Positions 10,938 to 45,197 of a stretch of DNA of 58,414 nucleotides are shown here, in pieces. The DNA comes from Haloterrigena salina JCM 13891 (lineage in GTDB: Archaea; Halobacteriota; Halobacteria; Halobacteriales; Natrialbaceae), in NCBI RefSeq assembly GCF_000337495.1, contig NZ_AOIS01000022.1, positions 1-58,414 of the forward strand. Reading direction: 5' to 3'. The stretch's first letter is position 1. Each line of letters opens with the position of its first letter. Position numbers and translations under genes: made by a program. Under the pieces are notes generated by a model that was given only the letters and a program-made list of their open reading frames with translations, was not told where the DNA came from and made no database searches.

Positions 10938-12095
10938 TCACATCGACTCTTGAACGAACTCGGGAGTGACCATCTCTTGGTTCTCCTCAACAGCAGCATC
11001 TAAAACTCGGCTACAGATAGCGAGTGCTTGGCGGACATTACCCTGCGAACGTTGTAGAATCTCGTCCAACCCTTCATCAGTAAACGGGGCTATCGAAGAA
11101 CCCTCGTTCGATCCGTTACGCTCTCGTCTGAGGTAGTTCGACACAAGATCGTTCAGATGGTCGTTCGTGAGAGGCTTCAGAGCCACTTCCTCGCCGATGC
11201 GCTCAGAGAACGCGTGATACTCGCTCATGACATCCTGCCAGACTTCGGGAGCACAGCCGAACAGCATGCAGAGGCCCGAACTGTTCTGGTCCATCAGGTG
11301 TCGGATGCTGTTGAGCGTCGCCTGCTCGTCCTTGGGAGAGAGCCGTGCGATGCTCTCGAACTCGTCGACGAAGACGAAAATACCGGTATAGCCGAGTTCG
11401 AGCAGCATATTTTTGAGTGCAGTGAAGGCCCGAACACCCATCGTGTCGTCGTCGAGTGCGCTGTGAATTTCCATCTCCTTGCGCTGTTCGTATCGAATCC
11501 CCTCTGCGGTGAGCCACTGCCATGCGTAGAGATTCGTGTCTTCGTACACCATGTGGATGATGGCACGCGCAAAGTCGGCGAACTTCGTCACATCGCTGAG
11601 GCGGCGAATTGCCTCGGGGACAATTTCCGAGAGCAGCACGTCGCCGTCGTCTATCAGCGACTCCATTGCACTAGCACCGATAGGGTTCGTCTCGGTGACA
11701 TCTCTCGCCACCGATGCAAGGAACTCGTACGCGAGCTCTTGGAGTCGGTTGAAGCCCAGATCGTAGATGAATTCGTGGTAGATGTCGAGGAATCCTTCGC
11801 CAGGCTGGGCAACGTATCCTACGACGACGTCATCGCGGTCGCGGAGGAGTGAACGGGTATACTTGAGCGTGTGTGACTTTCCGTTGCCGTACTTCCCCGT
11901 GACTACCAGGTGCTTGGACTTGCCGGTAGAGAGCATCGACGAGACTGTCGAGCTAATCTTATCCGAGACGTGCTGCTGGCCACAGTATATCTCGGGATCT
12001 TCGGAAGGTACTGGACTGTACGGAAAGGGGTTCGCGTTCAAGTCGTACTGTGAGTAGTCTTGCTGCTCGTCGGTGATCGTGAATGCGTCGGACAT
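10938..12095 (-). CDS. ORC-like AAA+ ATPase of the DpdA operon
   Basis: A 385-aa P-loop ATPase. The N terminus, NANPFPYSPV...YCGQQ, is like ORC/BrxD-type ATPases. Walker A is GKYGNGKSHT near residue 70 and Walker B is FVFVDEFES near 248, followed by an ORC-like helical C terminus with GNVRQALAIC. It is the last gene of an operon with a DpdA-like transglycosylase and a winged-helix protein; its start lies at the stop of the latter. The pairing suggests it assists target choice or loading of the DNA-modifying enzyme. A similar pair recurs at 22792-26944. Specific role inferred. Confidence 0.8.
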   Translation of the reverse strand: MSDAFTITDEQQDYSQYDLNANPFPYSPVPSEDPEIYCGQQHVSDKISSTVSSMLSTGKSKHLVVTGKYGNGKSHTLKYTRSLLRDRDDVVVGYVAQPGEGFLDIYHEFIYDLGFNRLQELAYEFLASVARDVTETNPIGASAMESLIDDGDVLLSEIVPEAIRRLSDVTKFADFARAIIHMVYEDTNLYAWQWLTAEGIRYEQRKEMEIHSALDDDTMGVRAFTALKNMLLELGYTGIFVFVDEFESIARLSPKDEQATLNSIRHLMDQNSSGLCMLFGCAPEVWQDVMSEYHAFSERIGEEVALKPLTNDHLNDLVSNYLRRERNGSNEGSSIAPFTDEGLDEILQRSQGNVRQALAICSRVLDAAVEENQEMVTPEFVQESM

Positions 12096-12991
12096 TATGT
12101 AGCCTCCTGTGTGTATTCGATGTCGCGGTCGTGCACCGCGAGGTAGTAGTATTTCTTACCGTACTGTTCGACACCGGCCATGACCTGCTGAGTGGACTGC
12201 GAAGTGCTAACTAAACCGTCCTCTTCGGAGAGCGCAATACGCTTGATACCGAGGGTGGCATCCTTTGCAGCCGTATCCATCGGTGCCCCCGATAGCTCGA
12301 GTTTACCGACATTCTGTTGGCAGAGATCGAGCAGCGCTTGGTTGAAATCATCACGAGTGCAGCCGAGTCGTTCACAAGTCTCCTCGCGGAGACGTGGAAT
12401 CGACAGGTAGCGCTGGCGCAGGTCGACGCCCGCTCTTTCTTCGAGGTCGTCGTACACGCCCAAGAGCAGGTAGTGGAAGTTAGTGGGTATCGCCGCCTGA
12501 TCTGTCAAGTAGTAGTTTCCCGTGAACGCGTTTCGTTGGACCCGACCCAGCCGCTCAGCCCAATCACCGAGCACCTCCACACTCGTTTGGTTATACGAAT
12601 ATGGGCTGAATTCTCGAGCCTCTTCTAACTGAGCCAGGAGTGTGTCTAAACCAGCGTTTTCGAGGTCTCCGAGAACCTCGATGAAGGTTCCGTAATGTGG
12701 GCTTCGTGTCTCGAGGATTGTGCTCACTTGATGCCAATCTTCGTCACGAATCGCACTGAGGAACGACAAACCAACATCAGTCGTCGTGTAGACTGGTTCC
12801 TCGCCAGAGTCATCTTCCTCGAGCAAGGAGATGCGCTTCGCTTCGAGGATCGTTTCACGCGCACGGCGGTGACTGACGTCCAATTCGTCTTCGAGATCCT
12901 CAGTGGACCTGCTGACTCCTTCACAGGCGTGGGTCAGTTCAGCCATCCGGCTGAGAGTGACTGGCCTTACAGTCGGCCTCTCGTCGCTCAT
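12095..12991 (-). CDS. Winged-helix partner protein of the DpdA operon
   Basis: A 298-aa acidic protein. The N-terminal 80 residues look like a winged helix (LEDELDVSHRRARETILEAKRISLL, then a YTTTDVGLSFL wing). The C-terminal half contains a second helix-turn-helix-like stretch (CERLGCTRDDFNQALLDLC). The layout, N-terminal wing, middle helical part, C-terminal helix-turn-helix, is the same as in the 255-aa protein at 22792-23559. It overlaps the DpdA-like gene by 4 bases and is followed at once by the ATPase gene, so the three are co-translated. Probably an adaptor for the ATPase; DpdG is a possible counterpart, unverified. Confidence 0.65.
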   Translation of the reverse strand: MSDERPTVRPVTLSRMAELTHACEGVSRSTEDLEDELDVSHRRARETILEAKRISLLEEDDSGEEPVYTTTDVGLSFLSAIRDEDWHQVSTILETRSPHYGTFIEVLGDLENAGLDTLLAQLEEAREFSPYSYNQTSVEVLGDWAERLGRVQRNAFTGNYYLTDQAAIPTNFHYLLLGVYDDLEERAGVDLRQRYLSIPRLREETCERLGCTRDDFNQALLDLCQQNVGKLELSGAPMDTAAKDATLGIKRIALSEEDGLVSTSQSTQQVMAGVEQYGKKYYYLAVHDRDIEYTQEAT

Positions 12992-14022
12992 GTGAGCCTC
13001 CGCACCTGTTGCTTGGCGGTTTCGTATGCGCGCTTGGTAACCTCGTTCCCACTGAAGCGCAAGTCGAGATACTCCTCGATGTCTCGACCAGATTCGGCGA
13101 CATACCGGAAGCGACGCAGTTCGGTCGCAAGTGCCCAGAGGTTATGCTGGGTCAGGGCAGTTCGGTCTTCACGAATCTCGTCAAGTTCCCTTTGTCCACA
13201 CACTGGGCAGGGACAGGGGAGCCTGTCTAATTCCTCAATATTCCGCAGTTCTTCCCCACCAAAGCCCGGAATCAAGTAGTTCCGGTTGCCTGCACTGCGG
13301 ATGAAGGCCGAAGAGTCGAAACTGTCGACCCCCAAGTAGAGCAGAAGTGGTTGATAGACGAGACCCCCGAGCCCGTACACGTGCAGGTGCTTGTCTGTCG
13401 CGTTTCGTGCAGACAGTATCAGTTTTGTTACTTTTTTATAATCGGTTCGTATCGGAACCATACTTCCGAGGGCATACCCATCGAATTCGCCGTTCTTCTC
13501 CAGGTATTGTATGTTATTCCGAATCGTCTCTGGATCGTAACCGTGGACACTCGCGAAGAGAAGTCCATCTCCATCGTGGTGGTCGCTCGCTTTGAGTGCG
13601 TACTCGATGCTTTGGTCGATTCGTCGTTGATTTTCTGCTGCCCGGTTGTCCTTTGAGAGAGGAATGTCGACTGTACCGAGGATGTCCGCGTCCAATTGAC
13701 TCTGGGTCTCAAGCGTTTTTACTGGGGTAGTGTCCACTTCTTCGTTGGCGAAATCGAACCCACCACTGTCAGCAAAAACGATAGTGTCCTCGGGGACGTC
13801 CATTTCCTCTCGTAACGTTACACCATTCGATATTCTCTGCCACATTGGGTCTCGGTTGCGGATTGACCTCGCGTTGATCATCGCTGCCGAGAACTCTGGA
13901 ATCGTGCCGACGTACGTCGGTGTATTGTCACTCGACCGCTTCCCGATGTTTCGGACGGGAAAGAGAACAGGGGTGTCTAGTTCCCCTCGGGGGAGGTCGA
14001 GTTTCCGGCGTCGATACAACAT
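12988..14022 (-). CDS. dpdA: DpdA-like DNA-guanine transglycosylase (TGT family, 344 aa)
   Basis: The N terminus GELDTPVLFPVRNIG matches the TGT barrel start. FADSGGFDF carries the substrate-binding aspartate (D85), GVDSFDSSAF carries the nucleophile region (D233/D236), and LPCPCPVC with a later HN (C270, C272, C275, H293) is the TGT zinc site. It lacks the PUA and other tRNA-binding domains of archaeal tRNA TGT. DpdA enzymes of this family replace guanine in DNA with preQ0. The island has its own preQ0 genes at 17939-20469, which supports that role over tRNA modification. First gene of a three-gene operon. Two transglycosylases in one island is unusual. Confidence 0.85.
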   Translation of the reverse strand: MLYRRRKLDLPRGELDTPVLFPVRNIGKRSSDNTPTYVGTIPEFSAAMINARSIRNRDPMWQRISNGVTLREEMDVPEDTIVFADSGGFDFANEEVDTTPVKTLETQSQLDADILGTVDIPLSKDNRAAENQRRIDQSIEYALKASDHHDGDGLLFASVHGYDPETIRNNIQYLEKNGEFDGYALGSMVPIRTDYKKVTKLILSARNATDKHLHVYGLGGLVYQPLLLYLGVDSFDSSAFIRSAGNRNYLIPGFGGEELRNIEELDRLPCPCPVCGQRELDEIREDRTALTQHNLWALATELRRFRYVAESGRDIEEYLDLRFSGNEVTKRAYETAKQQVRRLT

Positions 14023-14163
14023 GCCTCCCGCTCGGATAGGCTGTCCTCTTATTTAGTGAATGGGGCGATATGATCTAATCACTCATCTGAAACATATCCT
14101 CGGAACAGGAGAACAATTCTTAGGATCGAAAGAACACGGATGATTCCATCTGGTAGTGGAAGA

Positions 14164-17067
14164 TCATTCAGACTCGAATTCCGCTTGTGGTGGTACTTCC
14201 TCTACTCGCCGACACAGTTCTTCGATAGTTTCCGGTCGAAGAGTATCGACGCTGCCGATGTATCGAGCGAAGTTCTTCATATAGTGTCCCTTGAGTCCAA
14301 TAACGATCGTGCCATGTTCTTTTGCGTCCTCTGTCCGGGCGGGGATGGATTCGATATTGTCAAACTGGTCTTCGACAAGTTCGCGGTTGAACACCACACC
14401 AATCCGGTCGGAACGCACTTCCTGAACCATCTCGTCGATATTGATGCTGGTGTAGTAGTCCTTCCCGAGGGTAAAGAAGACGACATCGTAGTCGGCATCT
14501 TGGAGGAGGCGTCGTAGGTCTTTTTGAATGTTGAGTTTCGCAGATCGCTCTCTAATATCGCTAACATTCATTGAGCTGAACGTTACGTCGTAGGGTGGGA
14601 GATACTCGTCTTCTGCGACAAGGCCAAATCCTGCACTCACGAAGTAGCGATCGACATCGTGGCCTTGGCGCATGAGCCATCTAACTGCACTCTTGACGTG
14701 ATTTTGCTGGCGTCCAGTGTACAGGTCCCGTGCCGCGATACCCGGCACATTATCACGAGCGAGGAGGTCCTCGCGAGAGAACTGAAGAGTTTCCTCCTCA
14801 CCGAAGGTGGGCGCGTCGTCTGGTACCTCCTTCGATCCTGAACACTGGTCGATGACAAGGATGTCCAATCCGTTCTCGGTATCGATCTCAGGTGGATGAG
14901 GCACGAAGTCGTCACTGGCGGCATAGTTCTGCCCGCAGACCTCGAGTATTTGATCTCGCAACTCTCGGGGGTTGCTATTGGTGTGAACCTCGCAACCGTT
15001 TTCACGAGCAGCCGCTATGGCTTCTTCGTCAAGCTCGCCGTCCAATGTGTGTACGAAGAGGTGTTGGTACCTCGCTGCTTGTTCGCTGACGTTTGCTGCC
15101 ATACGGTCTGGGGCGAACGAGACGAGCGACGGGGTTTCTTCCCACCACTCACTCACGCCGTTCGCATCTAGTACACCAATCTCTGCGACCGGAAGGTCGT
15201 GTGTCTGGGCCCAGAACGAGGAGTGTTTGTCGCACAGATAGTCTTCAACAGTTTCGTAGCCACTGAGGGCCGCATCACCCTGGGTCGCGACGAGGATCTT
15301 CGGAAGGTCTTCTTCGAATTCATCGTAGAAGCGACGTGTGTTGTGGAACCCTCGTCTCCGATTTCGATCGTTCCCTCGGAAGATGCAAACCTCGATACCA
15401 TGCTCTCTACAGATTGGACAGTCACATTTCTCCCACGGACGACTTCGAAGGGTGTCTTGATACTCTTGGAGCAGGTCGTCGTCACCGATCCAAGTAGCAT
15501 AATCCCTGACAATCGCCCAGACTCGGTCATAGTCACTGACGACATACGGCTCGTCCAAAACGGTCTTCGCGTGTGGGAACGCCTCGAATACGTCTACCGC
15601 CGTGCTAAGCAGTTCGTCGTATTCCTCGAACGGTACTGGGGCAGCCGAGGTATCTTTCCGCAGGAGCTTGACTAGCTTACTACGTAGATTATCGCTGAAG
15701 CTCGCCTGAAGCTCACGGCCATACTCGAAATCCTCTCGGAACGCTCTTTCTATGTCCTGTAGGAGTGACTCGTCGTACTGGTCCTCGTGGCGGTGTTCCC
15801 GCAGGTATTCTCTAGTCGCTGGTAGCACCTTCTCGGCCCGCTCGTACCAACTCTCGAGAGCATCACGAATCGAATCTCCTGCATCGTATGCTCGGAGCGC
15901 TACCAGTGTTTCACGACCGCGTAGGGATTTCTCGACAGCTTCGTCGAGATCGTCTCGGCTCGATGGATAGCGAACTCGAATGGCATCGTAGCGTTCGCCG
16001 TTATCAAGGCGATAGTTCTGTCCACCCGTCCACGCCGAACGAAGCATACTGGCGCTGTCGAAACTAGTCATCCCCGAGCGACCGATCGTCTCGAACGCCT
16101 CAGTCTTCGCGAAGCCGAAGACGTGTGAGTCGATACGTGTGTTGTGTTCCCGTTCGAACTGCTTGATCGTCTTTCCGACGCTCTTAACGATTCCACGGAC
16201 GTCGTGAGTTGGACTACCTGCAACGCCCCCAATTCCGAGGTAGTCGTAGCCAATATCAAGCACCTCCTCAGCAGCCTTACTGTATGTGGCGGGGTTCCAG
16301 CCCTGGATGGCAACCATCAATCGGAATGGGTAGTCACGACGCTGGTAGAGATCATACATCTCTTGGGCGTTCCGCAGCGTCAGGTCGTAGCGGAACTCGG
16401 CGTCGTGTTTACGGTAGACCGCACGTGGATCCTCTGCGAGACGAGCTAGAACTGTGTCAATATCTCCTTGGAAGTCCTCTGCAACAAACGACTCAACATC
16501 TGTGTCCGAACCGGTACGAATCGTCGGCTCATACTCGTCGACGTATGAGGGCCATTCTTCCGGCCATTCATCGACCATTACGTCGACGACATCGGCGATG
16601 GCATCAGGGACATCGCTTTTGCTGAGTTCTTCGTCGAACGCTCGTTCATCAAGGTAGAGTCGCCCCCTGTCCTTGCCCGAACCGAGGACGAGATGGTCGA
16701 TTGTGACGCCGACAGTAACGTCCAGCGTCTCGTAGAAGCCAAGCATATCTTCGTTCCCGTACGGCGGGAAGGGGAGTGATTTGTAGCCCCAAGCCCCGCA
16801 GTCACTGATCGTGGGGAGCCAATTCGGGACAGAAAGAACTGGGTCGTCGTAGACGCCGTGTTTCGCGAGTCTTTCGGCTTTACGGTCAGTTTCTTCGACC
16901 TGCTCTCGGGAGATGAGAACCCCATCGACTGGTGTTGTTTCTGGATCGAAAATATCCCATATATAATCCAAATCGCGTTCTTGACGGTCCAGCGTAGAGA
17001 GTTCGTCGTGCTCAAAATCGTAGTGGGCGTCGACTGCGTCGTCCCACTCGGGAACGTAGAACCGCAC
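14164..17067 (-). CDS. Second DpdA-like transglycosylase with C-terminal DUF6884-like domain (967 aa)
   Basis: Residues about 80-600 are a diverged TGT-type barrel: SDCGAWGY at 88-95 replaces DSGGF, IGGVAG stands at the usual GG motif, TSFDSASMLRSAW matches the nucleophile region, and CDCPIC with a later FHN (about 547-580) is the zinc site. Residues about 735-880 (DILVIDQCSGSK, ARDLYTGRQ, YFVSAGFGLV, YDVTF) resemble DUF6884. The gene lies 141 bases upstream of the 344-aa DpdA on the same strand. The two may act as a heteromer or on different sequences. Fold assignment is good; activity and substrate are inferred, since the first catalytic aspartate motif is altered. Confidence 0.75.
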   Translation of the reverse strand: MRFYVPEWDDAVDAHYDFEHDELSTLDRQERDLDYIWDIFDPETTPVDGVLISREQVEETDRKAERLAKHGVYDDPVLSVPNWLPTISDCGAWGYKSLPFPPYGNEDMLGFYETLDVTVGVTIDHLVLGSGKDRGRLYLDERAFDEELSKSDVPDAIADVVDVMVDEWPEEWPSYVDEYEPTIRTGSDTDVESFVAEDFQGDIDTVLARLAEDPRAVYRKHDAEFRYDLTLRNAQEMYDLYQRRDYPFRLMVAIQGWNPATYSKAAEEVLDIGYDYLGIGGVAGSPTHDVRGIVKSVGKTIKQFEREHNTRIDSHVFGFAKTEAFETIGRSGMTSFDSASMLRSAWTGGQNYRLDNGERYDAIRVRYPSSRDDLDEAVEKSLRGRETLVALRAYDAGDSIRDALESWYERAEKVLPATREYLREHRHEDQYDESLLQDIERAFREDFEYGRELQASFSDNLRSKLVKLLRKDTSAAPVPFEEYDELLSTAVDVFEAFPHAKTVLDEPYVVSDYDRVWAIVRDYATWIGDDDLLQEYQDTLRSRPWEKCDCPICREHGIEVCIFRGNDRNRRRGFHNTRRFYDEFEEDLPKILVATQGDAALSGYETVEDYLCDKHSSFWAQTHDLPVAEIGVLDANGVSEWWEETPSLVSFAPDRMAANVSEQAARYQHLFVHTLDGELDEEAIAAARENGCEVHTNSNPRELRDQILEVCGQNYAASDDFVPHPPEIDTENGLDILVIDQCSGSKEVPDDAPTFGEEETLQFSREDLLARDNVPGIAARDLYTGRQQNHVKSAVRWLMRQGHDVDRYFVSAGFGLVAEDEYLPPYDVTFSSMNVSDIRERSAKLNIQKDLRRLLQDADYDVVFFTLGKDYYTSINIDEMVQEVRSDRIGVVFNRELVEDQFDNIESIPARTEDAKEHGTIVIGLKGHYMKNFARYIGSVDTLRPETIEELCRRVEEVPPQAEFESE

Positions 17068-17842: not shown

Positions 17843-17938
17843 TAATATGGCAACTACAATATAAATTCCCCAGAGATTTGACCATCTGGGAGTATGCTAC
17901 CGATAATACTTAGTGAATACTGCGAGAGCCTGTTTAAT

Positions 17939-18394
17939 ATGCACTCCGACCCAGAATCGATCTCTAATCTCGCTGAGCGCGATGAGCGAATGCTAGTCGT
18001 AGGAAAGGACAACCCGATTCGCATCAGCACAGGCCATAGATTGCTTCACCATGATGGCAAGTGTAGTCGGCCGCACGGTCATAACTACGAAATTTCGGTA
18101 GAGATAACGGGGGCGCTTACTGAGGAAGGTTGGGTCGTTGACAAAGGAAATATTACACGGGTAATATCGGAATGGGACCACCGATTTCTTCTCGAACAGG
18201 GGGACCCTCTCATTGAGGCCTTCGAGAAAAGCGGAGACAGTGATTCACTCATCGTTCTCGAACATCCTCCGACCGCAGAAGTGATGAGTCTCCTCCTTGA
18301 GCAGAAACTCTCCGAGGCGCTCCCTGACTCGGTCTCAGACATTTCGGTGACCGTTCGAGAGACATCGGAACTCTGTGCCGGGGGAACTCACTAA
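17939..18394 (+). CDS. queD: QueD, 6-carboxytetrahydropterin synthase
   Basis: Converts dihydroneopterin triphosphate to 6-carboxy-tetrahydropterin in preQ0 synthesis. STGHRLLHHDGKCSRPHGHNY holds the zinc histidines and the catalytic cysteine; EWDHRFLL and PPTAEVM are also family motifs, and the end VRETSELCAGG is typical. I prefer ATG 17939, giving 151 aa, over 17894: the extra residues are hydrophobic and unlike haloarchaeal QueD, and a TATA-like gataatactt lies about 27 bases before 17939, fitting a leaderless transcript. First gene of the preQ0 operon; its stop overlaps the queE start. Confidence 0.9.
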   Translation: MHSDPESISNLAERDERMLVVGKDNPIRISTGHRLLHHDGKCSRPHGHNYEISVEITGALTEEGWVVDKGNITRVISEWDHRFLLEQGDPLIEAFEKSGDSDSLIVLEHPPTAEVMSLLLEQKLSEALPDSVSDISVTVRETSELCAGGTH

Positions 18395-19167
18395 TGCCCG
18401 TCAGTTCCACTGCCGACGATCAAACAGCGGATGATGTCGACGGCGCAGCGCTGCCGATCAACGAACTCTTTTATTCGCTTCAGGGCGAGGGCAAACTCAC
18501 AGGAACTCCGTCAGTATTCGTCCGTACGAGCGGCTGTAATCTCCGATGTTGGTTCTGTGACTCTTACCACACTTCCTGGGAGCCCACCCACGGCACCATG
18601 AGCATCAACGACATTATCGAGGGGATCCAGTCACATGGCGACGCCGATCACGTCGTCCTCACTGGTGGTGAACCGCTCATCCATGACGAAGCGGTCACTC
18701 TCCTCGAGCGCCTCGACGATCTCGGCTACCACACCACCGTTGAAACCAACGGTACCATCCATCGCGACGCACCGATCGACCTAGCAAGCATTAGCCCGAA
18801 ACTCGCATCTAGTACACCCACTGCCGAGAAAGACCCCAAGGGAGACGGCGAGTGGGCAGATCGTCACAAGGACCGTCGCATCGACTTCGATGCGCTCGGT
18901 GCGCTCGTCGACGACTACGACACTCAACTCAAGTTCGTCGTCACTGGTCCCGACGACTTGCCCGAGATTGAATCCCTCCTCGCCGACATCCGCTCGACAG
19001 CAGCAAGTCGCATTCCAGACTCCGACGTGCTACTGATGCCGGAGGGAACGACCCGGGATGAAGTCGACGCAAGACGGAACGAGGTCGCTGACCTCGCGAT
19101 GGAATACGGCTACCGGTACACGCCGCGGTTGCACGTCGATTTGTGGAACGACGCTCCCGAAACATAA
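18394..19167 (+). CDS. queE: QueE, 7-carboxy-7-deazaguanine synthase
   Basis: Radical SAM enzyme that contracts the pterin ring to 7-carboxy-7-deazaguanine. CNLRCWFCDS is the C-x3-C-x2-C iron-sulfur motif, preceded by FYSLQGEGKLTGTPSVFVR, the QueE signature. TGGEP (SAM binding) and ETNGT follow. 257 aa, normal length. Starts in a TAATG overlap with queD, so the genes are coupled. Haloarchaeal chromosomes normally already carry queC/D/E for archaeosine, so this set is probably a dedicated second copy for DNA modification. Confidence 0.92.
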   Translation: MPVSSTADDQTADDVDGAALPINELFYSLQGEGKLTGTPSVFVRTSGCNLRCWFCDSYHTSWEPTHGTMSINDIIEGIQSHGDADHVVLTGGEPLIHDEAVTLLERLDDLGYHTTVETNGTIHRDAPIDLASISPKLASSTPTAEKDPKGDGEWADRHKDRRIDFDALGALVDDYDTQLKFVVTGPDDLPEIESLLADIRSTAASRIPDSDVLLMPEGTTRDEVDARRNEVADLAMEYGYRYTPRLHVDLWNDAPET

Positions 19168-19168
19168 C

Positions 19169-19777
19169 ATGACGAGCACGCACTCGCAACTTACGACGGA
19201 AGACACTGAATCGGACATCGACCACGAGAAGGCCCAGCGAGGTGTTCGACTCCTGCTGGAGGCTGTCGGCGAAGATCCGGACAGCGATGCGCTCGCTGAG
19301 ACTTGGCAGCGACGCGTTCCGGACGCATTCGCAACACTCACTGAAGGCCAACGGGAGACCGCGAAGCCGACGATGCGCACCTTCGATGCCGAGACAACTG
19401 ACTTAGTGGTGAAAACGGGGATTCCCGTATACTCCCTGTGTGAGCACCACCTACTACCGTTCTTCGGTACGGTACACCTCGCGTACAGGCCGACCGACGA
19501 AGTGGTGGGGCTTTCCAAGTTAACGCGGTACGTCCGCTGGCAGTCACGGCAACTCACGATGCAGGAACGGTTGACGAACGACATTGCGTCGGGTCTCCAA
19601 GAGGAACTCGACGCAGGCACGGTTCTCGTAGAAATGAACGCGACGCACCTTTGTGAAGCGATGCGCGGCATCGAAACCGAGAGTACGACCACCACCAGAG
19701 CGACCATCGGTGAACCAAGTGAGGCCGAACGCGAGCGGTTCCAAGCAGCGGTCAACCGTACGGAGGATCAACAATGA
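19169..19777 (+). CDS. folE: FolE, GTP cyclohydrolase I (bacterial type)
   Basis: Makes dihydroneopterin triphosphate from GTP, the first step to preQ0. CEHHLLPFFGTVHLAY is the zinc and active-site motif, GLSKLTRYV follows, and MNATHLCEAMRGI gives the second zinc cysteine region. 202 aa, the usual length. It is the FolE (type IA) family rather than the MptA/FolE2 type used by most archaea, which points to transfer from bacteria with the operon. It starts one base after the queE stop. Confidence 0.9.
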   Translation: MTSTHSQLTTEDTESDIDHEKAQRGVRLLLEAVGEDPDSDALAETWQRRVPDAFATLTEGQRETAKPTMRTFDAETTDLVVKTGIPVYSLCEHHLLPFFGTVHLAYRPTDEVVGLSKLTRYVRWQSRQLTMQERLTNDIASGLQEELDAGTVLVEMNATHLCEAMRGIETESTTTTRATIGEPSEAERERFQAAVNRTEDQQ

Positions 19778-20469
19778 GTGAGAAGAGGGCGGTCATTCTG
19801 GCATCCGGAGGGATGGATAGTGCAACGGCAGCGGCTGTCGCTCAGGATGCTGGTTACGAGTTGTACATGCTGCACACGTCCTACGGACAGCAAACAGAGA
19901 CGAAGGAGTACGAGTGTGCAAAGGCTCAGGCCAAGGCCTTCGGCGCCGCCGACTTCCTCCACTTGACGACGGACCACCTCTCAAAAATCGGCGCGTCGAG
20001 TCTTACTGACGACGAGATGGATGTCGAGGATGCGGACATGGATAGTGACGAGATCCCCTCAAGCTACGTGCCGTTCCGGAACGCGAACCTCCTGTCAATG
20101 GCGACGTCGTATGCGGAAGCCAACGACTGTGAGGCCGTGTTCATCGGTGCGCACAGCGAGGACTTCTCTGGGTATCCTGACTGCCGGCCAGAGTTCTTCG
20201 AGGCATTCCAGCAGGTCGTCGACGTCGGTACGAAACCAGAGACCAAGATCAGCATCGAAGCGCCGTTCGTCGAGGCTTCGAAGACGGACATCGCTGAACG
20301 CGGCCTCGAACTTGATGTTCCCTACGAACATACCTGGAGCTGCTACCGCGATGAAACACCGGCGTGTGGCACGTGCGACGCGTGTGCGTTCCGCCTCCAG
20401 GCATTCCAGAACCTGGGCGAGCGAGACCCGATTGAATATGCCGAGCGTCCAGCCTATATTGAATCGTAA
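19774..20469 (+). CDS. queC: QueC, 7-cyano-7-deazaguanine (preQ0) synthase
   Basis: ATP-dependent last step making preQ0. ASGGMDSATAA is the PP-loop, YVPFRNANLL and FIGAHSEDFSGYPDCR are QueC signatures, and CYRDETPACGTCDACAFR supplies four zinc cysteines. 231 aa, a single domain without the amidotransferase part found in Gat-QueC, so the operon should stop at preQ0. Overlaps the folE stop by 4 bases (ATGA). Last gene of the operon; a hairpin follows. Confidence 0.92.
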   Translation: MSEKRAVILASGGMDSATAAAVAQDAGYELYMLHTSYGQQTETKEYECAKAQAKAFGAADFLHLTTDHLSKIGASSLTDDEMDVEDADMDSDEIPSSYVPFRNANLLSMATSYAEANDCEAVFIGAHSEDFSGYPDCRPEFFEAFQQVVDVGTKPETKISIEAPFVEASKTDIAERGLELDVPYEHTWSCYRDETPACGTCDACAFRLQAFQNLGERDPIEYAERPAYIES

Positions 20470-21266: not shown

Positions 21267-21542
21267 ATGGCTAGAATCACGCAACCGACCCGACTAGATC
21301 GGGTTGAGCATATCATCGGTAGCGGGACCGGAATGCTGGACTTCGCAGTAGAGGGGGAGAACGATTACTACACGTGGGACGGCGGTGAGGACGCTGATTG
21401 GAAGATTGAAGATGTGGATTCAGTCGAGAATATCGACGAAGATCGGTTCATTATGTATCCTGACGGCGAGGCCTTTGTCTGTGACATCGCATCAGAGGGG
21501 GAGGAGGGGAACACAGGACCAGTACGCTGCTGGTGCGAGTAA
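21267..21542 (+). CDS. Hypothetical protein (91 aa)
   Basis: A small very acidic protein (DYYTWDGGEDADWKIEDVDSVENIDEDRF) that ends in CWCE. No known domain. The composition is coding-like and the start ATG 21267 is clear. It sits 42 bases before the long restriction-like operon and may be its first gene. Its pattern of W, Y and D/E recalls small acidic inhibitor-like proteins, but that is not evidence of function. Confidence 0.5.
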   Translation: MARITQPTRLDRVEHIIGSGTGMLDFAVEGENDYYTWDGGEDADWKIEDVDSVENIDEDRFIMYPDGEAFVCDIASEGEEGNTGPVRCWCE

Positions 21543-21584: not shown

Positions 21585-22739
21585 ATGTATGCTGATAATG
21601 TCGATTTCTACTCCCTCTCCGAAACCAAACAACGACGCTTGGTTCATAACAAGCGCGTTGCGACTACTGACCAGTTGCTAAAGGAACTACCAGAGGGAAA
21701 GCCTGCGGTTCGGATATTTGAAGGCTCTCTCGACCAATTAGTGTTGGATCAACTGGAGCAAAGTCAATACACTATCGAAGAATTGGCGAACCACTTTAGC
21801 GTACAACCCGCTGATGTTCGACGTGTACTCCATAAGTATCGCCGACGTGGGTCAGACGACTTTACGAACGAGAATTTCAAACTGAACCTTCTTGAGGAGC
21901 GGCACGGTGTGATACGTGGTGTCGACAGTGATGGGAGGTCACTCTATTATACTCTCCAAACAATCCCATTCTTCGCCCGTGTTGTCGATCCAACGTTGAT
22001 GTTTTCTCTATTGGGACTGGACGAGTATGTCGATACGTTCCCTCACATCGCCGAACATATTCCTAGTGGAAAAGCTACTGAACTGGATGAAGACTACGCC
22101 TTCGTGATCGGTGAATACTGGAACATTGACGCGGAGGAAGTATTCGAATACCTGACTGAGTTTGACCGCGCATATGTCGATACATCATTACTTCCACTAC
22201 CTTATATCGAAGACGACGAGCATTATGAGCGCGTGTCTCGTCGGTTTAGACAGGTCGACGAGGTCTACCGTATGTTTCGTGGGACCTCAGATCACGTCCA
22301 GGAAGTCGGTGAAGAATTCATGGGTCGTGTCGAACAGAACCAAGCGGGGATAGCTACTTATCAAGTAATGAGCATCGATTTTGCTGATTTTGAGTGGTAT
22401 GTGGACCAATCTGGCGACTATGCCCTTCACAACGTAATCGGGGATTGGGTAGAACAGATAACCCGATCGCTTCATCCCGATGAACCATCTATGGATGTCG
22501 ACGATTCGATAGAGGATGCAGAAATCAATCTCCGAGATGAAATCCAGTTAATCCTCTCGGAGAAACCTCGAACTCCTGCCGAGATACACGATGAACTCCC
22601 TCGTGATGTTCAATTGGGAACGGAGCAATCAGAAATCAAGGCAGTTCTAGAACGATTGGCCAATACAGGTGTTATCAGCAAAAAGGACGAGGTGTCTACA
22701 TCTCGGTACTTCCAGCGACAGAGAAAAACGTGGGAGTAG
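21585..22739 (+). CDS. Winged-helix protein, paralogue of the 35098-36333 protein (384 aa)
   Basis: The N terminus has FYSLSETKQRRLV, then an HTH-like FEGSLDQLVLDQLEQSQYTIEELANHF, a shared core LLEERHGVIRGVDSDGRSLYYTLQTIPFFARVVDPTL, and a C-terminal winged helix (ILSEKPRTPAEIHDELP...VLERLANTGVISKKDE). The core and N terminus clearly match the 411-aa protein that closes the same operon. No catalytic motif. Probably a DNA-binding or assembly subunit. First or second gene of the operon. Confidence 0.7.
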   Translation: MYADNVDFYSLSETKQRRLVHNKRVATTDQLLKELPEGKPAVRIFEGSLDQLVLDQLEQSQYTIEELANHFSVQPADVRRVLHKYRRRGSDDFTNENFKLNLLEERHGVIRGVDSDGRSLYYTLQTIPFFARVVDPTLMFSLLGLDEYVDTFPHIAEHIPSGKATELDEDYAFVIGEYWNIDAEEVFEYLTEFDRAYVDTSLLPLPYIEDDEHYERVSRRFRQVDEVYRMFRGTSDHVQEVGEEFMGRVEQNQAGIATYQVMSIDFADFEWYVDQSGDYALHNVIGDWVEQITRSLHPDEPSMDVDDSIEDAEINLRDEIQLILSEKPRTPAEIHDELPRDVQLGTEQSEIKAVLERLANTGVISKKDEVSTSRYFQRQRKTWE

Positions 22740-22791
22740 TCGGGGAAAGGCTTTATCTACTTATGACCGAGACCAACAATATCTCACTCGA

Positions 22792-23559
22792 ATGACCCTC
22801 CAGTATGCGCGCCTCTTCCAACTACGGGCCGGCATTCAACTGATCGCAGAATCTGGTCCGATGTCCAAGGAGGAGCTTACAGAAGCACTTAGACAGCGGA
22901 AAACGATCGGTGCTGATGAAACCGCTACCGAAGGAGCAGACGATATAATCGAACAACTTCGGGATGCAAACCTCATAAAAAATAGCGAAGAGGGCTACCA
23001 ACTAACATCTGAAGAGGGATTCAACGACAAAGGGGTCGTGTTGACTTATTCAGGTGAAGAAGTCGTTGGTGCAGAAGATCAGCGAGCGCAAGCAGACCGA
23101 ATACTCGCAAATATCATGTACCAACACCCTATGCTGCTCGTCCTCTCGAAATTCATCTACCGGAAAGGCCCAGTCAAGGACTACGAAGTGATGCGGGAAT
23201 TTGATGGCGATGCGTTCATTGGTGACAAGATGAATCAATTCACAATTGACATGGGTCTCGATCTACTGGAAGATGCCGACGTTATTGAACCCACAGACAA
23301 TGGCTACATCCAGGGGAGGTGGCCTGTTCGCCTGTTCGCACACGTTATCTACGAAGAATATTCGGATTTGATTGGTGACGGGGGCAGCGTTCGAGAACCT
23401 GAACTCTTCGAGAGATTAGAAACTTTGTACGGTATCCCTCGAAGCACGTTCGATAACTACATTACGAGACTGCATACTGCCGGTATCGTTTCTGAAGGTA
23501 GCTACAAACAGTTGATCCTCAACGAAGACGTCCTTGAAGGAGCCAAAATCCATGAGTGA
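22792..23559 (+). CDS. Winged-helix adaptor paired with the large ATPase (255 aa)
   Basis: Starts at ATG 22792 (MTLQYARLFQLRAG). The N-terminal winged helix is LIAESGPMSKEELTEALRQR...IIEQLRDANLIKNSEEGYQLT. After it come LLVLSKFIYRKGPVKDYEVM and a C-terminal HTH-like LYGIPRSTFDNYITRLHTAGIV. The layout matches the 298-aa protein at 12095-12991, which is also followed by an ATPase. A TATA-like tttatcta lies about 35 bases upstream, so this gene may open a sub-operon. It overlaps the ATPase gene by 8 bases. Possible counterpart of DpdG, unverified. Confidence 0.7.
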   Translation: MTLQYARLFQLRAGIQLIAESGPMSKEELTEALRQRKTIGADETATEGADDIIEQLRDANLIKNSEEGYQLTSEEGFNDKGVVLTYSGEEVVGAEDQRAQADRILANIMYQHPMLLVLSKFIYRKGPVKDYEVMREFDGDAFIGDKMNQFTIDMGLDLLEDADVIEPTDNGYIQGRWPVRLFAHVIYEEYSDLIGDGGSVREPELFERLETLYGIPRSTFDNYITRLHTAGIVSEGSYKQLILNEDVLEGAKIHE

Positions 23560-26500
23560 ACCAGCAAGCAAATTCAACGAACTAGGGTTGGAACGAGACC
23601 CATTCTCGACGACTATCGCGGATGAGGAGATTGCGGCACAGTATAGTTTGGTCGGAAGAGATGATCAGGAGTACCGCCTGCGTGAATTCGTCCAATCGGG
23701 CATTCGTGAGCCCGACCTCATGAAACGTCGGCTGATTTTCGGAGAATATGGGACAGGTAAGTCCCACCATCTCATCGAACTGCGGGACGAGGTAAGAGAA
23801 GGCGTTGAAGTCGATGGGGAAACGTATGAATCACTAGCAGTATACGTCGGCAACTTAGGTCTGAGTATTCGTCGGCTGTATGAGAAAATCGTTGAGGAGA
23901 TACTAGAAGACGAACCTGGTCTTCAGGACTACGTGGAGTCACTTCCTGATGTCGAACCGGACAGTAGTGTTGACGAAGCCTATCAATATGAACGTCTGCA
24001 AGACAACGTTGCCACAAACCTTCGGAAAATCGTCACACATGCCAGAGAAGAATTAGGATACCGCTCAGTCTACCTCTTCATCGACGAAGCAGAAGACATT
24101 GAGGCAGAAAATGACGAGCAGAAAGTACAGCGGTTTATTCGCTCGTTCCTTCATTTGGTTAACGAACTGAACACCTCGGGTCTGCACATTCTTCTAGGGT
24201 TTTCTCAAGGTGCACGGATGGCGATTACCCAATACGAGGATGACGATGACTCGCTTGGTAATGCGTTGGTTCAAAGGTTCCAGGGAGACGATATTTATCT
24301 TGGCGATCTTACTGAATCAGACGTCAAAGAGATGCTAATCGACCGGATGGATGCCCACCGAACTTCTAACCGTGGTGAAATTTCACCAATTGTGGAAGAC
24401 ACTGTCGATGTTGTAACTGAGGTTACGGGAGGCCATCCACGATCGATCCTTCAGATATACTCTGAGGCCCTCAACTACGCAGCGAAAGTGGATGCGGACC
24501 GGATTGATGGCGATGCTATCGTTTACGCTCTTAGAGATTTCACCTCTCTTGTGCGTGACGAGGACCTCCTGAGTGGAGAAGCACTTACCTCACTCAAGAA
24601 GGCCCTTGAGGATGCACACCCTGACGCACGAGATGACTTCGAGCGCTTGGAGGGGCGCCTCATTGGAGAAGGAGATGCGATTCCAGAGAATTCCTTCTCG
24701 GATGGCGTTCCTGGCGCTCTCATGAGTCCGATTACTGTTGAAGGAGAGGATGCTGGCGAAATTCGTGTCCTTGAAAAACGCGACCGGCACGGTCGATACT
24801 ACTATGTTTTGAGTGAAGAGGCCAAGGACTTCCTCTTCCGCGGAAAAGGTGACGAAGGGACGGAGACACAGAAGTTGGATCTCCAAGCGACGAATGCCCC
24901 TGACAAATACCAAAGAGACCTTTCACGTGGGCTAGCGCTGGCTGTTCAATCGATGGGCAAAGGGAGTCTGCATAAGGATCCCGTCACCATCGCTGCCGGT
25001 CGATACGAATACGCTCTTCACTTAATCGACGTTGACCGAGGACCGGGGAAGCGAGAACAAACTGTCGCCGTTGGTGTGTATAACGGCCAGGAAATACCCG
25101 TAGAATTACTCAAACTCTACGTCGAGGCCTACCAATCTCGTGGGGCTACATTCGGTGCGTTGGTAAAACAAAACCAGCAGCAATCTGCGGAGGCAAATAA
25201 GTACGTTAACGGGCTAGATAGCGAAGAACGACAGTTTGTCACCGACCGTATTATAGAGGTCAATCTCTCTACTGAACAACGTGACAACTTCATTTATGGT
25301 AGGCTGTTGGCTCTTGGCGATTCTGAGATTCAAGCAGAGGGGATGGTCGATGGCCACACGCTGATCTCTGAAATTGGCATAATCGGTGGCTTGCAAGAAA
25401 CCTTCACAGAGACGATCCTTCCGTATCCCGACAAGGTTCATCGTGATGTCATCGAGCATCTTGAAAAGAATGATGCACGAGAGTTCACAATTGGTGACCT
25501 AAAGGACGAGCTCGACATTCAAAGCTATAACCTGAATGGGGACATAATGGGTGGGCTTCGAGACCAAAATCTCGTAGCGAAATCAGGAAATCGCTGGGTC
25601 TATCCGGACATCGAGAACGACAAGCCGCCGTGGTATGAGATTTACCGGCGTCTTAACGAGCGCGGGGCCCTCACCGTGGATGAGATCCAGGATCAGTTAA
25701 CCACCGAGTTCGCTCTGGGTTGTTCACGTGGTGATGAGAATGCGATGATTCAGTGGTATTTGGACCATCTCCAGAGACAGAACTACGTGGAGCCCACCAC
25801 AGTAGAACGGGAGGGAGAGATTCACGACGCGTACGACATAGTTAGTGTTGAGGACCAGTATAATGAAGCTAGATCCCGAGCCCAATCTAGGCTGGATGCG
25901 GCGCAGGAGCTCTACGACGAAGCGGTTTCGCTTGACGCCAAGAGCATCAATAGCTACAAGAATCGGATTGAGGACTACTCCACCCAACTCGAACAGTTTG
26001 ATGAAGTTTTCAACCCGACACACAACGACCTGAACGAGGTTCGTAGCCTCATCGACGATATTGTGGAACTGGAGGAAGACCTAGAAGATGCTGTCTCTGA
26101 CCGCAAAGAGAAGATTGTCGGTGACGCAGTTTCAGTTCGAGACGATATTGACGATCTTCAACGGAAGATTTCGAAATCCGATGTAGAGGGTTCATTCGGG
26201 TCTCAGCTTGATGACTACGATGAGGAGTTGGGAGAACTGGATACGGAACTTGAGTCGCTCGTAGATAACGAGCAGTATGAGCGGCTTGCGAAACGAACCG
26301 GGAACATCGATGACCGGGTAGATACGATAGACGATGAAGTTGAACAGCTTCTGGGCGTCAAGTCAAAATGTACTGAGAAATTCAAGCAACTGCGTGATGT
26401 AGCAGACAGCGCGGAGGATCACATCGACGCTATTGCAGCAGAGAACTCTTCGCACACGGAACTGGAAGCGGAACTTGAGACAATTGAATCTCGATTTGAC

Positions 26501-26944
26501 GATTATCGAGATCAGTTCAATAGTGGCGAATTCAAGGTTGCCCTCAGCACGCTCGAAGAGATTGGACCAGACCTCAAATCTCTCAAAGAGCAGGCGCAAG
26601 GGATTGAGCAGCAGCAACAACAGTATCTAAAACAACTCGATGATCTTGATCCGGAAATCTCCGACGAGGAAGGAAAAGAACTGCTCGAAGAAGCACGGAA
26701 AACCGTAAAGAAGGGCGACTTCGCCACGGCGCCGACACTCATTGACGACCTTCGTGAACGAGCAAAAGGGCCGACCCGACGTGAGCAGTTTGTCGCTGCC
26801 TTGCGTGAGTACAATGGAAGTTTCAGGAAGATCGTCACTGAGACAGACTTCGATGAGGCAGAAGCGTTTAGTCAACTCAAAGATGTCTACTCGGACTCTA
26901 CGAGCGACATTGAGGACATAACGGTCGTGATGGCTAATGAGTAA
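23552..26944 (+). CDS. Large ORC/BrxC-like ATPase with coiled coil (1130 aa)
   Basis: Starts at ATG 23552; an in-frame TTG 18 bases earlier is less likely. The N terminus FNELGLERDPFSTTIADEEI is ORC-like. Walker A is FGEYGTGKSHH near residue 66 and Walker B is LFIDEAED near 173. The middle holds winged-helix-like stretches. Residues about 770-1090 are long charged coiled coil. This architecture recalls BREX BrxC and the ATPase DpdH of Dpd systems, and it is the large counterpart of the 385-aa ATPase at 10938. It overlaps both neighbours by 8 bases. Likely the motor or sensor of the restriction arm; the DpdH match is inferred. Confidence 0.75.
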   Translation: MSEPASKFNELGLERDPFSTTIADEEIAAQYSLVGRDDQEYRLREFVQSGIREPDLMKRRLIFGEYGTGKSHHLIELRDEVREGVEVDGETYESLAVYVGNLGLSIRRLYEKIVEEILEDEPGLQDYVESLPDVEPDSSVDEAYQYERLQDNVATNLRKIVTHAREELGYRSVYLFIDEAEDIEAENDEQKVQRFIRSFLHLVNELNTSGLHILLGFSQGARMAITQYEDDDDSLGNALVQRFQGDDIYLGDLTESDVKEMLIDRMDAHRTSNRGEISPIVEDTVDVVTEVTGGHPRSILQIYSEALNYAAKVDADRIDGDAIVYALRDFTSLVRDEDLLSGEALTSLKKALEDAHPDARDDFERLEGRLIGEGDAIPENSFSDGVPGALMSPITVEGEDAGEIRVLEKRDRHGRYYYVLSEEAKDFLFRGKGDEGTETQKLDLQATNAPDKYQRDLSRGLALAVQSMGKGSLHKDPVTIAAGRYEYALHLIDVDRGPGKREQTVAVGVYNGQEIPVELLKLYVEAYQSRGATFGALVKQNQQQSAEANKYVNGLDSEERQFVTDRIIEVNLSTEQRDNFIYGRLLALGDSEIQAEGMVDGHTLISEIGIIGGLQETFTETILPYPDKVHRDVIEHLEKNDAREFTIGDLKDELDIQSYNLNGDIMGGLRDQNLVAKSGNRWVYPDIENDKPPWYEIYRRLNERGALTVDEIQDQLTTEFALGCSRGDENAMIQWYLDHLQRQNYVEPTTVEREGEIHDAYDIVSVEDQYNEARSRAQSRLDAAQELYDEAVSLDAKSINSYKNRIEDYSTQLEQFDEVFNPTHNDLNEVRSLIDDIVELEEDLEDAVSDRKEKIVGDAVSVRDDIDDLQRKISKSDVEGSFGSQLDDYDEELGELDTELESLVDNEQYERLAKRTGNIDDRVDTIDDEVEQLLGVKSKCTEKFKQLRDVADSAEDHIDAIAAENSSHTELEAELETIESRFDDYRDQFNSGEFKVALSTLEEIGPDLKSLKEQAQGIEQQQQQYLKQLDDLDPEISDEEGKELLEEARKTVKKGDFATAPTLIDDLRERAKGPTRREQFVAALREYNGSFRKIVTETDFDEAEAFSQLKDVYSDSTSDIEDITVVMANE

Positions 26945-29726: not shown

Positions 29727-31855
29727 GCGATCAAACTCCTCTCTCGGAAGCAGATGACCTGACGCAAGAAGAGCGATTGCTGGCACGACTTAATGGCCTG
29801 ATTCAATACCAATCTGACCTGCTTGATAAGGTCCAGCGCAATCGTTTCCGTCCATATTGCCATATACCAGACCTTTTTGAGCTTGATCCAGAGGCAACAA
29901 GGCCATTTAGCGTTCCGGGTACATTCATCTCTGAGCAAGTTGGTGGTAACATCAGTGTTGTCAACGCGAATGGCGGCTTTTTGGCGAATGAGCCTCTCGA
30001 TCTTATGTTGGGGAGCTTTCTGCCCGGTGGCTACAAACGCCGATGGGAATTCGACCTATGGACTGGAGATTTCGGGCCTTCATCGAGAAGAGGATTTGCA
30101 GATATTAACGACGGGCTGCGCATTCGAACATCCAGTCAACTATCCGAGATCCTACCACAGAGTGATGAAGAGCGGTACACCCCATTTGAGCACCCTGTAG
30201 ACGAGGTAAGCGTCTACATTCCACAACAGTTCATCGTCTGGAATCCGAGCGTAGGTGAGAACGGAGAGCATACGCACTACTATTGGGATTCTGCGAACGG
30301 GGTTGTAAGGAATCAGAAACCAGAGGATGTCTCAGAGGAGGAACTCACGAAGTTGAAAAGTGATCCGACCTCGCAGTTCCTCTGGTTCAAACATCCCCTT
30401 GGACGAGGCGACAGTCCGGAGTCACTGGATTTGTCGACGATGACCGGTGGCCTCATTGAGCAGGGAGAGTTCAACAGCGACGCGACATTCCTTAAAGCGT
30501 ACTATGCCACCCTGTTGACTCTATACGGCGAAGAGAGGACCTTCTCTGAAGTAATTCGCTATCGTCATGAGGAAGATGATGCCACGGCATTCGTTGGTAG
30601 CCGTGAGGAGAGCCAGGTTCTGATGTTTGATATAGACCGGTCGATGGTCACCGAGTTACTTGACAAAGTCTTCCAGAAAGAAACGCCGCTTTTCCGAGAC
30701 CTCCAATTTTCGCTCTTATATCGCCGATTATGGGACCGACTGTTCTTCCAAGAGGAGGCCCTCGAGCACGCATTTAGCGTTACCCCGTTCTATCGTGCCC
30801 TAATTGCGGTCGACTATCTCTTTTCGATGGGATCTGACGGGCCAGACTCGCTATTTGAAGCCAGTGTTAACGACATTGCAGCACGTCTTCCAAGCCTCCT
30901 ACCGTCTAGAGACAGGCGGTTAGGGCTGCTTGATTACGATGACGGGAAAATTTCGACTTATGAGACGCTTCTGGATGAATATGGAGATTCGTTGAAAGCC
31001 ATTATTGAGGAGTGCACTGATGGCGATTCAGTGAGACAATTTGCTGAGCATGTCTTCGTCCACTCACTCAAACATGGACTTGCTTCGTGGGCGGCAGAAT
31101 ACAGTGCCGGTGGTGGTGACTTCGAAGCTTGGTACGACGTGAACTTCGTAGAGACAAACGGCGAAACCGTTGAGATCGGTATCTATGACTCAATTCAAGG
31201 CGGTGCCGGTGTAAGCCGTGAAGTCTTCGATGACTTACGTGAGCTCTCCGATACTGAACTGCTAAGCGGGCTTGCTAAACAGGCAAGCTGCCATATCGGT
31301 GCTACAGAAGAGACGTTGGTCTCCTTGCTGGAGGAATACTCTGGAGAGTACGTGTTTGACCTCGCTCAAACGAGCGAAATTGCATCTGGGCGCGATGTAT
31401 CCGAGTTCAATGATGCGTTTCAGAGCCTTGGAGCCGACTTCTCGTACGCTCGGTACGACGACGTCAAACCGCTACTTCACCGGCGTCTTAACCGAATAGC
31501 TGAGACACGGGAAATGGCCCGCTTCTATAGTGTTGTTGCTGAGACATATACGACAGTGAAGGAACAACTAAACCGCACACCACGGCCGGTAGACTTGGTA
31601 TTTGCTCTGGAGGACCGAACGTTCTTCGACACTCGGGTCAGAGAGACGTACCGTAGATTTGCGAATAGGCGTTCTCAGCGCCGTGATCTCAGTGAACTGG
31701 CTGAACGAATAGAAGAGGTGACTAAGCAGTGTATTCATGCATGTCCGGACTGTCTAAAACGTGATTCCTGCACACACCAATATCGGTATCAGGAACAGAT
31801 GCTCGACCGCCGTCTCCTCGCACGCTCACTAGCGTCACTTGATGGAGGTAAGTGA
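29723..31855 (+). CDS. DUF1998-type protein, DrmB-like (710 aa)
   Basis: The C-terminal part has YDSIQGGAGVSREVF near residue 490 and four cysteines at CIHACPDCLKRDSC near 670. These are the signature of DUF1998, a zinc-binding domain that is the C terminus of MrfA-type helicases or a separate protein (DrmB) in DISARM. The N terminus (PFSVPGTFISEQVGGNISVVNANGGFL) also fits DrmB-like proteins. The ATGA overlap with the helicase gene suggests the two form a complex. No nuclease motif of its own. Assignment to the family is fairly sure; calling it DrmB is by analogy. Confidence 0.75.
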   Translation: MSDQTPLSEADDLTQEERLLARLNGLIQYQSDLLDKVQRNRFRPYCHIPDLFELDPEATRPFSVPGTFISEQVGGNISVVNANGGFLANEPLDLMLGSFLPGGYKRRWEFDLWTGDFGPSSRRGFADINDGLRIRTSSQLSEILPQSDEERYTPFEHPVDEVSVYIPQQFIVWNPSVGENGEHTHYYWDSANGVVRNQKPEDVSEEELTKLKSDPTSQFLWFKHPLGRGDSPESLDLSTMTGGLIEQGEFNSDATFLKAYYATLLTLYGEERTFSEVIRYRHEEDDATAFVGSREESQVLMFDIDRSMVTELLDKVFQKETPLFRDLQFSLLYRRLWDRLFFQEEALEHAFSVTPFYRALIAVDYLFSMGSDGPDSLFEASVNDIAARLPSLLPSRDRRLGLLDYDDGKISTYETLLDEYGDSLKAIIEECTDGDSVRQFAEHVFVHSLKHGLASWAAEYSAGGGDFEAWYDVNFVETNGETVEIGIYDSIQGGAGVSREVFDDLRELSDTELLSGLAKQASCHIGATEETLVSLLEEYSGEYVFDLAQTSEIASGRDVSEFNDAFQSLGADFSYARYDDVKPLLHRRLNRIAETREMARFYSVVAETYTTVKEQLNRTPRPVDLVFALEDRTFFDTRVRETYRRFANRRSQRRDLSELAERIEEVTKQCIHACPDCLKRDSCTHQYRYQEQMLDRRLLARSLASLDGGK

Positions 31856-31857
31856 AA

Positions 31858-45123: not shown

Positions 45124-45197
<74 letters not shown>

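Follow-up and report, generated by a model that had tools for sequence, protein, structure and literature searches.

Two TGT-type genes and the TGT344 cassette

The window analysed here is a 58,414-nucleotide stretch of Haloterrigena salina JCM 13891 (contig C22, NCBI RefSeq NZ_AOIS01000022.1, genome of 4.84 Mb). It holds an island in which two genes for TGT-type (tRNA-guanine transglycosylase-type) proteins lie side by side, as a preliminary description of the DNA had pointed out. Both are on the minus strand, 141 bp apart. The first encodes a 967-aa protein (DpdA967) and the second a 344-aa protein, called TGT344 below. The start of the next gene overlaps the stop of TGT344 by 4 bp, and the ATPase gene then overlaps by 1 bp:

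14164..17067, minus strand: DpdA with a fused C-terminal DUF6884/DpdC-like domain, 967 aa, GTG start (NCBIfam DpdA, PDB 7ui4)
12988..14022, minus strand: TGT344, second TGT-superfamily transglycosylase, 344 aa, ATG start (Pfam TGT)
12095..12991, minus strand: 298-aa protein, possibly winged-helix, placed directly after TGT344
10938..12095, minus strand: 385-aa BrxC/BrxD-like AAA+ ATPase (Pfam BrxC_BrxD, E 5e-17)

The 967-aa protein is, judging by its sequence, a regular archaeal DpdA with a fused DpdC-like domain. It scores 276.3 bits against the NCBIfam model NF041059 (DpdA, curated cut-off 200), and its profile matches PDB 7ui4, the DNA preQ0 (7-cyano-7-deazaguanine) insertase DpdA, with an E-value of 2.8e-53. 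The preliminary description had it keeping the SFDS region (335-338) and the zinc site, and D89, D337, C548, C550, C553 and H575 are indeed conserved. It had also reported SDCGAWG at the place of DSGGF. The motif is there (residues 88-94), but it is not a departure from the TGT motif: the Asp and a Gly are retained. SDCGAWG aligns with GDCGAF of DpdA in the alignment to 7ui4, and because the aspartate is kept it can be regarded as the ordinary DpdA form of DSGGF; a DCGA(F/W) form is also found in the DpdA of Enterobacter, Agrobacterium, Caulobacter, Nostoc and Paenibacillus. A degenerate, noncatalytic 967-aa protein is thus ruled out. Of the 92 DpdA rows spanning the catalytic site, 91 retain the Asp, and no row spanning the zinc ligands has lost them. 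The lack of a TGT barrel, which would have told against the preliminary reading, is not borne out: the predicted structure finds its best fold match in 7ui4 (Foldseek E 3.7e-11), although the model is of low quality (pLDDT, the predicted local distance difference test, of 68.6, with residues 1-93 very low).

The C-terminus of DpdA967 (residues ~735-955) corresponds to DUF6884, and the PADLOC DpdC model matches at 735-842 (E 7e-8). This domain is predicted to be a hydrolase that converts preQ0 into 7-amido-7-deazaguanine (ADG). The fusion is present in about 30 Halobacteria; in about 20, DpdA is ~735 aa long and the same domain is encoded by a distinct gene of ~250 aa just after it. This adjacent gene is a natural confirmation that the DUF6884 domain is a DpdC-like partner. 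The domain is C-terminal in one methanogen DpdA, and N-terminal in the cyanobacterial and Paenibacillus DpdA.

TGT344 has the canonical TGT motifs attributed to it beforehand: ADSGG (84-88) followed by F89, SFDS (234-237), C270/C272/C275 and H293. Chance could not plausibly produce the motifs seen in these two proteins. TGT344 matches Pfam TGT with an E-value of 1.5e-26, and its predicted structure (pLDDT 82, predicted TM-score 0.86) has ArcTGT (PDB 1iq8) as best fold match (Z 36.7, root-mean-square deviation 2.3, 328 residues); the match to the catalytic subunit QTRT1 (7b2i_C) has a Z of 33.1. The alignment to ArcTGT identifies D85 and D236 as the catalytic pair, and C270, C272, C275 and H293 as zinc ligands. 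The catalytic Asp is retained in 68 of the 69 TGT344 rows covering the site, and the zinc ligands in every covering row. With the barrel, the two catalytic Asp and the zinc site all present, the protein is a member of the TGT superfamily.

Its sequence places TGT344 with neither DpdA nor the tRNA enzymes, in a separate clade of the superfamily. It scores only 34.1 bits against NF041059, under the cut-off of 200. Maximum-likelihood phylogeny groups it in a clade apart, with a haloarchaeal and a methanogen half (support 99/97), outside the DpdA clade (100/99) and apart from the two tRNA TGTs of the tree, one archaeal and one bacterial. TGT344 shares the fold, the Asp pair and the zinc site with ArcTGT/TgtA, but it reaches 134.4 bits on the archaeal TGT model TIGR00432 (cut-off 350), has no PUA/C1/C2 domains (the tRNA-binding C-terminal part) and carries His160 where ArcTGT has Gln169 in the pocket. 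The host's own TgtA is full-length (625 bits) and encoded on another contig, which rules out TGT344 as the housekeeping ArcTGT; ArcS is also present in the genome.

The pocket His is found in all aligned haloarchaeal TGT344 and in Methanoregula, and Gln in five other methanogens; as the residue varies, it was discarded as a fixed signature of DNA-directed TGTs. Archaeal DpdA keeps the pocket Gln (Gln255), which is found in all aligned archaeal DpdA and in all aligned bacterial DpdA except that of Enterobacter (and 7ui4). The patterns used on IMG/VR gave no relative of TGT344, nor did 50,697 phage records contain one, and horizontal capture from phages was rejected on these data.

The 298-aa gene directly follows TGT344 in 40 haloarchaeal loci, 39 of which also have the ATPase gene. 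The three genes are contiguous in nearly all of these loci (the exceptions are interrupted or decayed) and also in five methanogens; they are a fixed cassette. The 298-aa protein, possibly a winged-helix protein, has no match in Pfam, NCBIfam or PADLOC. The 385-aa ATPase has intact Walker A (GKYGNGKS) and Walker B (VFVDE) motifs and no solved relative by sequence.

Co-occurrence with DpdA and the absence of DpdB

TGT344 was scored in Halobacteria at an identity of at least 55%, ArcTGT being clearly apart at ~30%. Among 391 Halobacteria genomes, 56 have TGT344 and 56 have DpdA: both are present in 55 of the 57 carriers, one genome has TGT344 only, one has DpdA only and 334 have neither (Fisher p 6e-65, kinship ignored). 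Among 393 genomes of the phylum, TGT344 is present in 16 and DpdA scores over the cut-off in 14, all 14 of which have TGT344. The TGT344-only genomes (G034 and G462) have no AAA gene and appear decayed, and the DpdA-only genome (G166) ends at a contig edge. This co-occurrence rules out chance neighbours. Together with the DpdA, preQ0 and DpdJ neighbours, it supports the reading that two TGT-type proteins belong to one system, with DNA as the likely substrate.

DpdA lies directly beside the cassette in most haloarchaea; elsewhere it is several kilobases away or divergent, and in methanogens DpdA and TGT344 are 14-23 kb apart. The carriers include the genetically tractable genera Haloferax, Haloarcula and Halorubrum. 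The decayed locus of Natrinema pallidum (L103, genome G034) has TGT344 and a truncated 298-aa gene, and neither ATPase nor DpdA. On a plasmid of Halospeciosus flavus (L115, L135), the entire modification cassette is present twice in similar form, and frame breaks affect DpdA and other genes.

In the window, preQ0 synthesis genes accompany dpdA, and a helicase/nuclease module follows:

17894..18394, plus strand: QueD (TIGR03367, 70.7 bits, below the cut-off of 89)
18394..19167, plus strand: QueE (QueE models, best E 8e-27, below curated cut-offs)
19058..19777, plus strand: FolE, GTP cyclohydrolase I (NF006826, 170 bits, over cut-off)
19774..20469, plus strand: QueC (TIGR00364, 190 bits, over cut-off)
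22669..23559, plus strand: 296-aa protein of the restriction module, kept with the next four genes in three methanogens
23534..26944, plus strand: 1136-aa AAA ATPase with coiled coil, restriction module; gene order conserved in methanogens
26937..29726, plus strand: DpdJ-like (YprA-family) helicase, N-terminal part (NF041067 DpdJ, 176 bits against a cut-off of 800; PADLOC DpdJ E 5e-55)
29723..31855, plus strand: 710-aa protein with an MrfA zinc-binding (MZB) motif (Pfam MZB E 1e-4, just under cut-off)
31852..35025, plus strand: 1057-aa PD-(D/E)XK nuclease, candidate restriction effector (Pfam PDDEXK_1 E 4.5e-14)

The 710-aa MZB protein adjoins the DpdJ-like helicase (DpdJ929) wherever it is found, and is probably the C-terminal part split off a YprA/DpdJ helicase. 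In three methanogens (G515, G607 and G591), the cassette, DpdA and a complete helicase/nuclease module are in one island of ~20 kb; the module consists of the 296-aa protein, the 1136-aa ATPase, the DpdJ-like helicase, the 710-aa MZB protein and the PD-(D/E)XK nuclease. Since the window and these methanogens hold the same gene set, it looks like an old, whole system. Other haloarchaea have the same modification core with two DpdJ-like helicase open reading frames ~5.5 kb apart.

DpdB of bacteria is reportedly an ATPase which is required for preQ0 insertion. The NCBIfam model NF041060 was dropped as a test for DpdB because it is too narrow (it missed cyanobacterial DGQHR proteins), and a broader DpdB alignment was used. 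The latter recovers a full-length DpdB in six of six cyanobacterial DpdA genomes (340-433 bits), whereas the same profile finds no full DpdB in 27 archaeal carriers, with nothing above 45 bits. The host's own genome and 24 other archaeal carriers give no DpdB match.

A second TGT also occurs with DpdA in bacteria. Plasmids of Nostoc NIES-3756, Picosynechococcus PCC 73109 and Paenibacillus sp. 37 carry DpdA and a second TGT of ~310 aa, and DpdB was not detected on them (the search covered the whole Picosynechococcus plasmid, all but ~400 bp of that of Nostoc and 94 kb of that of Paenibacillus). DpdB is present in 17 of the 19 remaining bacterial DpdA loci, in which a second TGT was not found within ~10-14 kb of DpdA. 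The second TGTs fall on at least three branches of the tree: an archaeal one, a cyanobacterial one and one on the DpdA side (Paenibacillus and genome G898, whose long branches make the placement unsure). It is mainly because a second TGT has been recruited repeatedly where DpdB is lacking that this TGT is proposed to replace the function of DpdB. One cyanobacterial locus (L278, 8551-11638) has two oppositely oriented DpdA-family genes, of 697 and 341 aa, with DpdB ~5 kb away.

Several observations weigh against such a replacement. Two archaeal genomes have weak partial DGQHR matches near the island. Two bacterial DpdA loci have neither DpdB nor a second TGT within 10-12 kb, and the plasmid result covers the plasmids, the host chromosomes of Nostoc, Picosynechococcus and Paenibacillus lying outside the search for DpdB. 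G898 has DpdB plus a second, DpdA-like TGT, so that the mutual exclusion is not absolute. The cyanobacterial second TGTs have no zinc site, and the second TGTs may therefore not all work alike. The carriers share ancestry, so their counts overstate the independent support, and the role given to the 298-aa protein and the ATPase is drawn from gene order alone.

Proposed mechanism, alternatives and known systems

We give about an even chance to the island being a variant of the Dpd-type restriction-modification systems in which the cassette of TGT344 and the ATPase replaces DpdB. The observations on which this builds are family identities, the conservation of active-site residues, near-obligate co-occurrence, operon structure and the absence of DpdB. 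The FolE, QueD, QueE and QueC encoded by the island would produce preQ0, DpdA would exchange DNA guanine for preQ0 and the fused DpdC-like domain would hydrolyze the nitrile of preQ0 to the amide, giving ADG. TGT344, whose catalytic residues are intact, would be a second, DNA-directed transglycosylase. Together with the 298-aa protein and the AAA ATPase it would act as a single unit that loads onto or selects the DNA, or co-catalyzes the reaction, and so makes base exchange productive. This unit would stand in for DpdB, the DGQHR ATPase needed by bacterial DpdA, and in archaea ATP hydrolysis would be supplied by the AAA ATPase with its intact Walker motifs. Marked self DNA would be spared, while the neighbouring DpdJ-helicase/PD-(D/E)XK module would restrict unmarked DNA. 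Activity, substrate, product and division of labour are all inferred here from the genes.

More tentatively, and with a chance clearly below even, the mark may need two different, both catalytically active TGTs, which might for instance each serve one DNA strand or together form a catalytic heteromer. Archaea, cyanobacteria and Bacillota would then have recruited a second TGT independently of each other, each time in place of the requirement for DpdB. To our knowledge, the reason DpdA depends on DpdB and the targeting of DNA-guanine exchange are unsolved questions. A natural system without DpdB, in which a second TGT is almost always present, offers a direct genetic test. If the proposal is correct, we know of no earlier case in which two different TGTs serve one DNA modification, and 7-deazaguanine is predicted in cellular archaeal DNA.

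The two transglycosylases could also be the subunits of an obligate heterodimer similar to the eukaryotic QTRT1/QTRT2, with DpdA as the working subunit and TGT344 as a supporting subunit that holds and orients the DNA. TGTs are usually dimeric, and in eukaryotes two related chains make up a heterodimeric enzyme (PMC6165067); the near-obligate co-occurrence, the zinc subdomain kept in both proteins and the good fit of TGT344 to QTRT1 are in agreement with this. However, TGT344 retains both catalytic Asp, unlike the noncatalytic QTRT2, and neither family has a dead subunit. The partners moreover reassort: between loci L079 and L126, TGT344 is 97% identical and DpdA 56%, while between the window and L126 DpdA is 92% identical and TGT344 75%. 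The distances of TGT344 track those of the ATPase (r 0.91) and of the 298-aa protein (0.89) more than those of DpdA (r 0.77), so the mirror-tree approach was set aside as evidence for a tight dimer, and in methanogens the genes are far apart. These identities and correlations argue that TGT344 belongs first to the cassette and that DpdA has been exchanged around it, which makes a narrowly co-evolved DpdA-TGT344 interface less favoured and does not speak against cooperation. The heterodimer is therefore an unlikely arrangement. We consider equally unlikely that DpdA and TGT344 are two independent writers that modify DNA separately and differ in target sequence, in strand or in the 7-deazaguanine used. 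Both active sites are intact, the pockets differ (His160 of TGT344, against Gln169 of ArcTGT and Gln255 of archaeal DpdA), the genes belong to separate operon modules and another two-TGT island exists in Halosimplex salinum. Yet independent enzymes do not need such strict co-occurrence, the TGT344 of five methanogens has Gln too, and a second tailoring enzyme was not identified.

Two other roles for TGT344 are far less probable. The preliminary description had considered that one of the proteins might act in tRNA recognition, and the closest solved relatives of TGT344 are indeed tRNA TGTs, ArcTGT first, which would make it an enzyme for tRNA or another RNA that merely travels with the island. 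This is disfavoured, to the point of being very improbable, by the full-length ArcTGT and the ArcS of the host, the lack of C-terminal tRNA-binding domains and the company of DpdA even in methanogens. Slighter still is the chance that TGT344 works on the restriction side, where it might, for instance, probe modified bases or take them out and so help to distinguish self from non-self, as could be imagined from the BrxD-like ATPase alongside it and from the genes sometimes adjoining the restriction module. TGT344 is also found with restriction modules of other types, which suggests that it goes with modification instead, and we know of no precedent for base removal by a TGT.

The Dpd restriction-modification system is reported from bacteria. 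The window shares with it a DpdA over the curated cut-off, a DpdC-like domain, preQ0 genes and a DpdJ-like helicase. It differs in that DpdB is absent and the second TGT, the 298-aa protein and the BrxD-like ATPase are present, that the DpdJ-like helicase is split, and that it has a PD-(D/E)XK nuclease, no PLD (phospholipase D) nuclease being recognised.

Bell et al. (2025, PMC12458937) described BRIGADE, hybrid Dpd-like systems of haloarchaea that include a predicted 7-deazaguanine cluster; according to the main text, they usually have two YprA-family helicases and are reported only in halophiles. The relatives with two DpdJ-like helicase open reading frames correspond to what is expected of BRIGADE, whereas the window has a single DpdJ-like helicase, split from its MZB part, and the core described here is also found in methanogens. 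The main text of that paper does not mention transglycosylases; its supplements may do so. BREX-related capture (BRC) systems with TGT and GNAT are another case in which no DpdB is reported (PMC12839542). They likewise combine a TGT with BREX-like ATPases, but have PglZ, HerA/FtsK, DUF6079 and DUF4007 (PMC12839542), none of which was matched in the island proteins scanned. The system thus overlaps with the BRIGADE and Dpd-like systems reported in 2025, while the paired TGTs seem to be undescribed. Indeed, paired TGTs that are both intact, the fusion of DpdA with DpdC, the occurrence in methanogens as well and the pattern of DpdB replacement were not found in the literature covered, which leaves out supplements and several core Dpd papers.

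Island borders and other islands

A phage-type integrase gene (36586-37680) and a tRNA-Lys (45123-45197) are located near the right edge of the island, past which the GC content climbs from ~0.52 to 0.70. Together, they suggest an integrated island. A conserved acidic protein of 91 aa (K91, isoelectric point 4.05) is encoded at 21267-21542; 18 of 40 loci have it next to DpdA or queC.

Two large genes of the window may belong to further defence systems. One (38256-43118) encodes a 1620-aa protein whose N-terminal domain is sacsin-like and whose C-terminal domain is NOV; it matches TmtA of PADLOC and is possibly a separate defence gene. The other (764-5566) encodes a 1600-aa MkoA-like protein that weakly matches Cas4/PD-(D/E)XK and also contains an SF1 (IGHMBP2-like) helicase, and a split homologue of it sits between DpdA and TGT344 in genome G038.

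The island of Halosimplex salinum (L140, 4302-11908) is a second kind of two-TGT island. It contains QueC, QueE, QueD, a DUF6884 protein, a 419-aa TGT, a GHKL ATPase and a 663-aa TGT fused to an ArcS-like domain; from this fusion, archaeosine is predicted in DNA. Proteins of the same TGT-ArcS-like type, of ~570-680 aa, are encoded in Planktothrix, Nostoc, Oscillatoriales and Poribacteria (L139 and L141-L149) and form one clade with the Halosimplex protein. The ArcS part was matched in L141, the one scanned, which also has GmrSD-like and HEPN genes beside it. From their sequences, these proteins are possible bacterial makers of DNA archaeosine.

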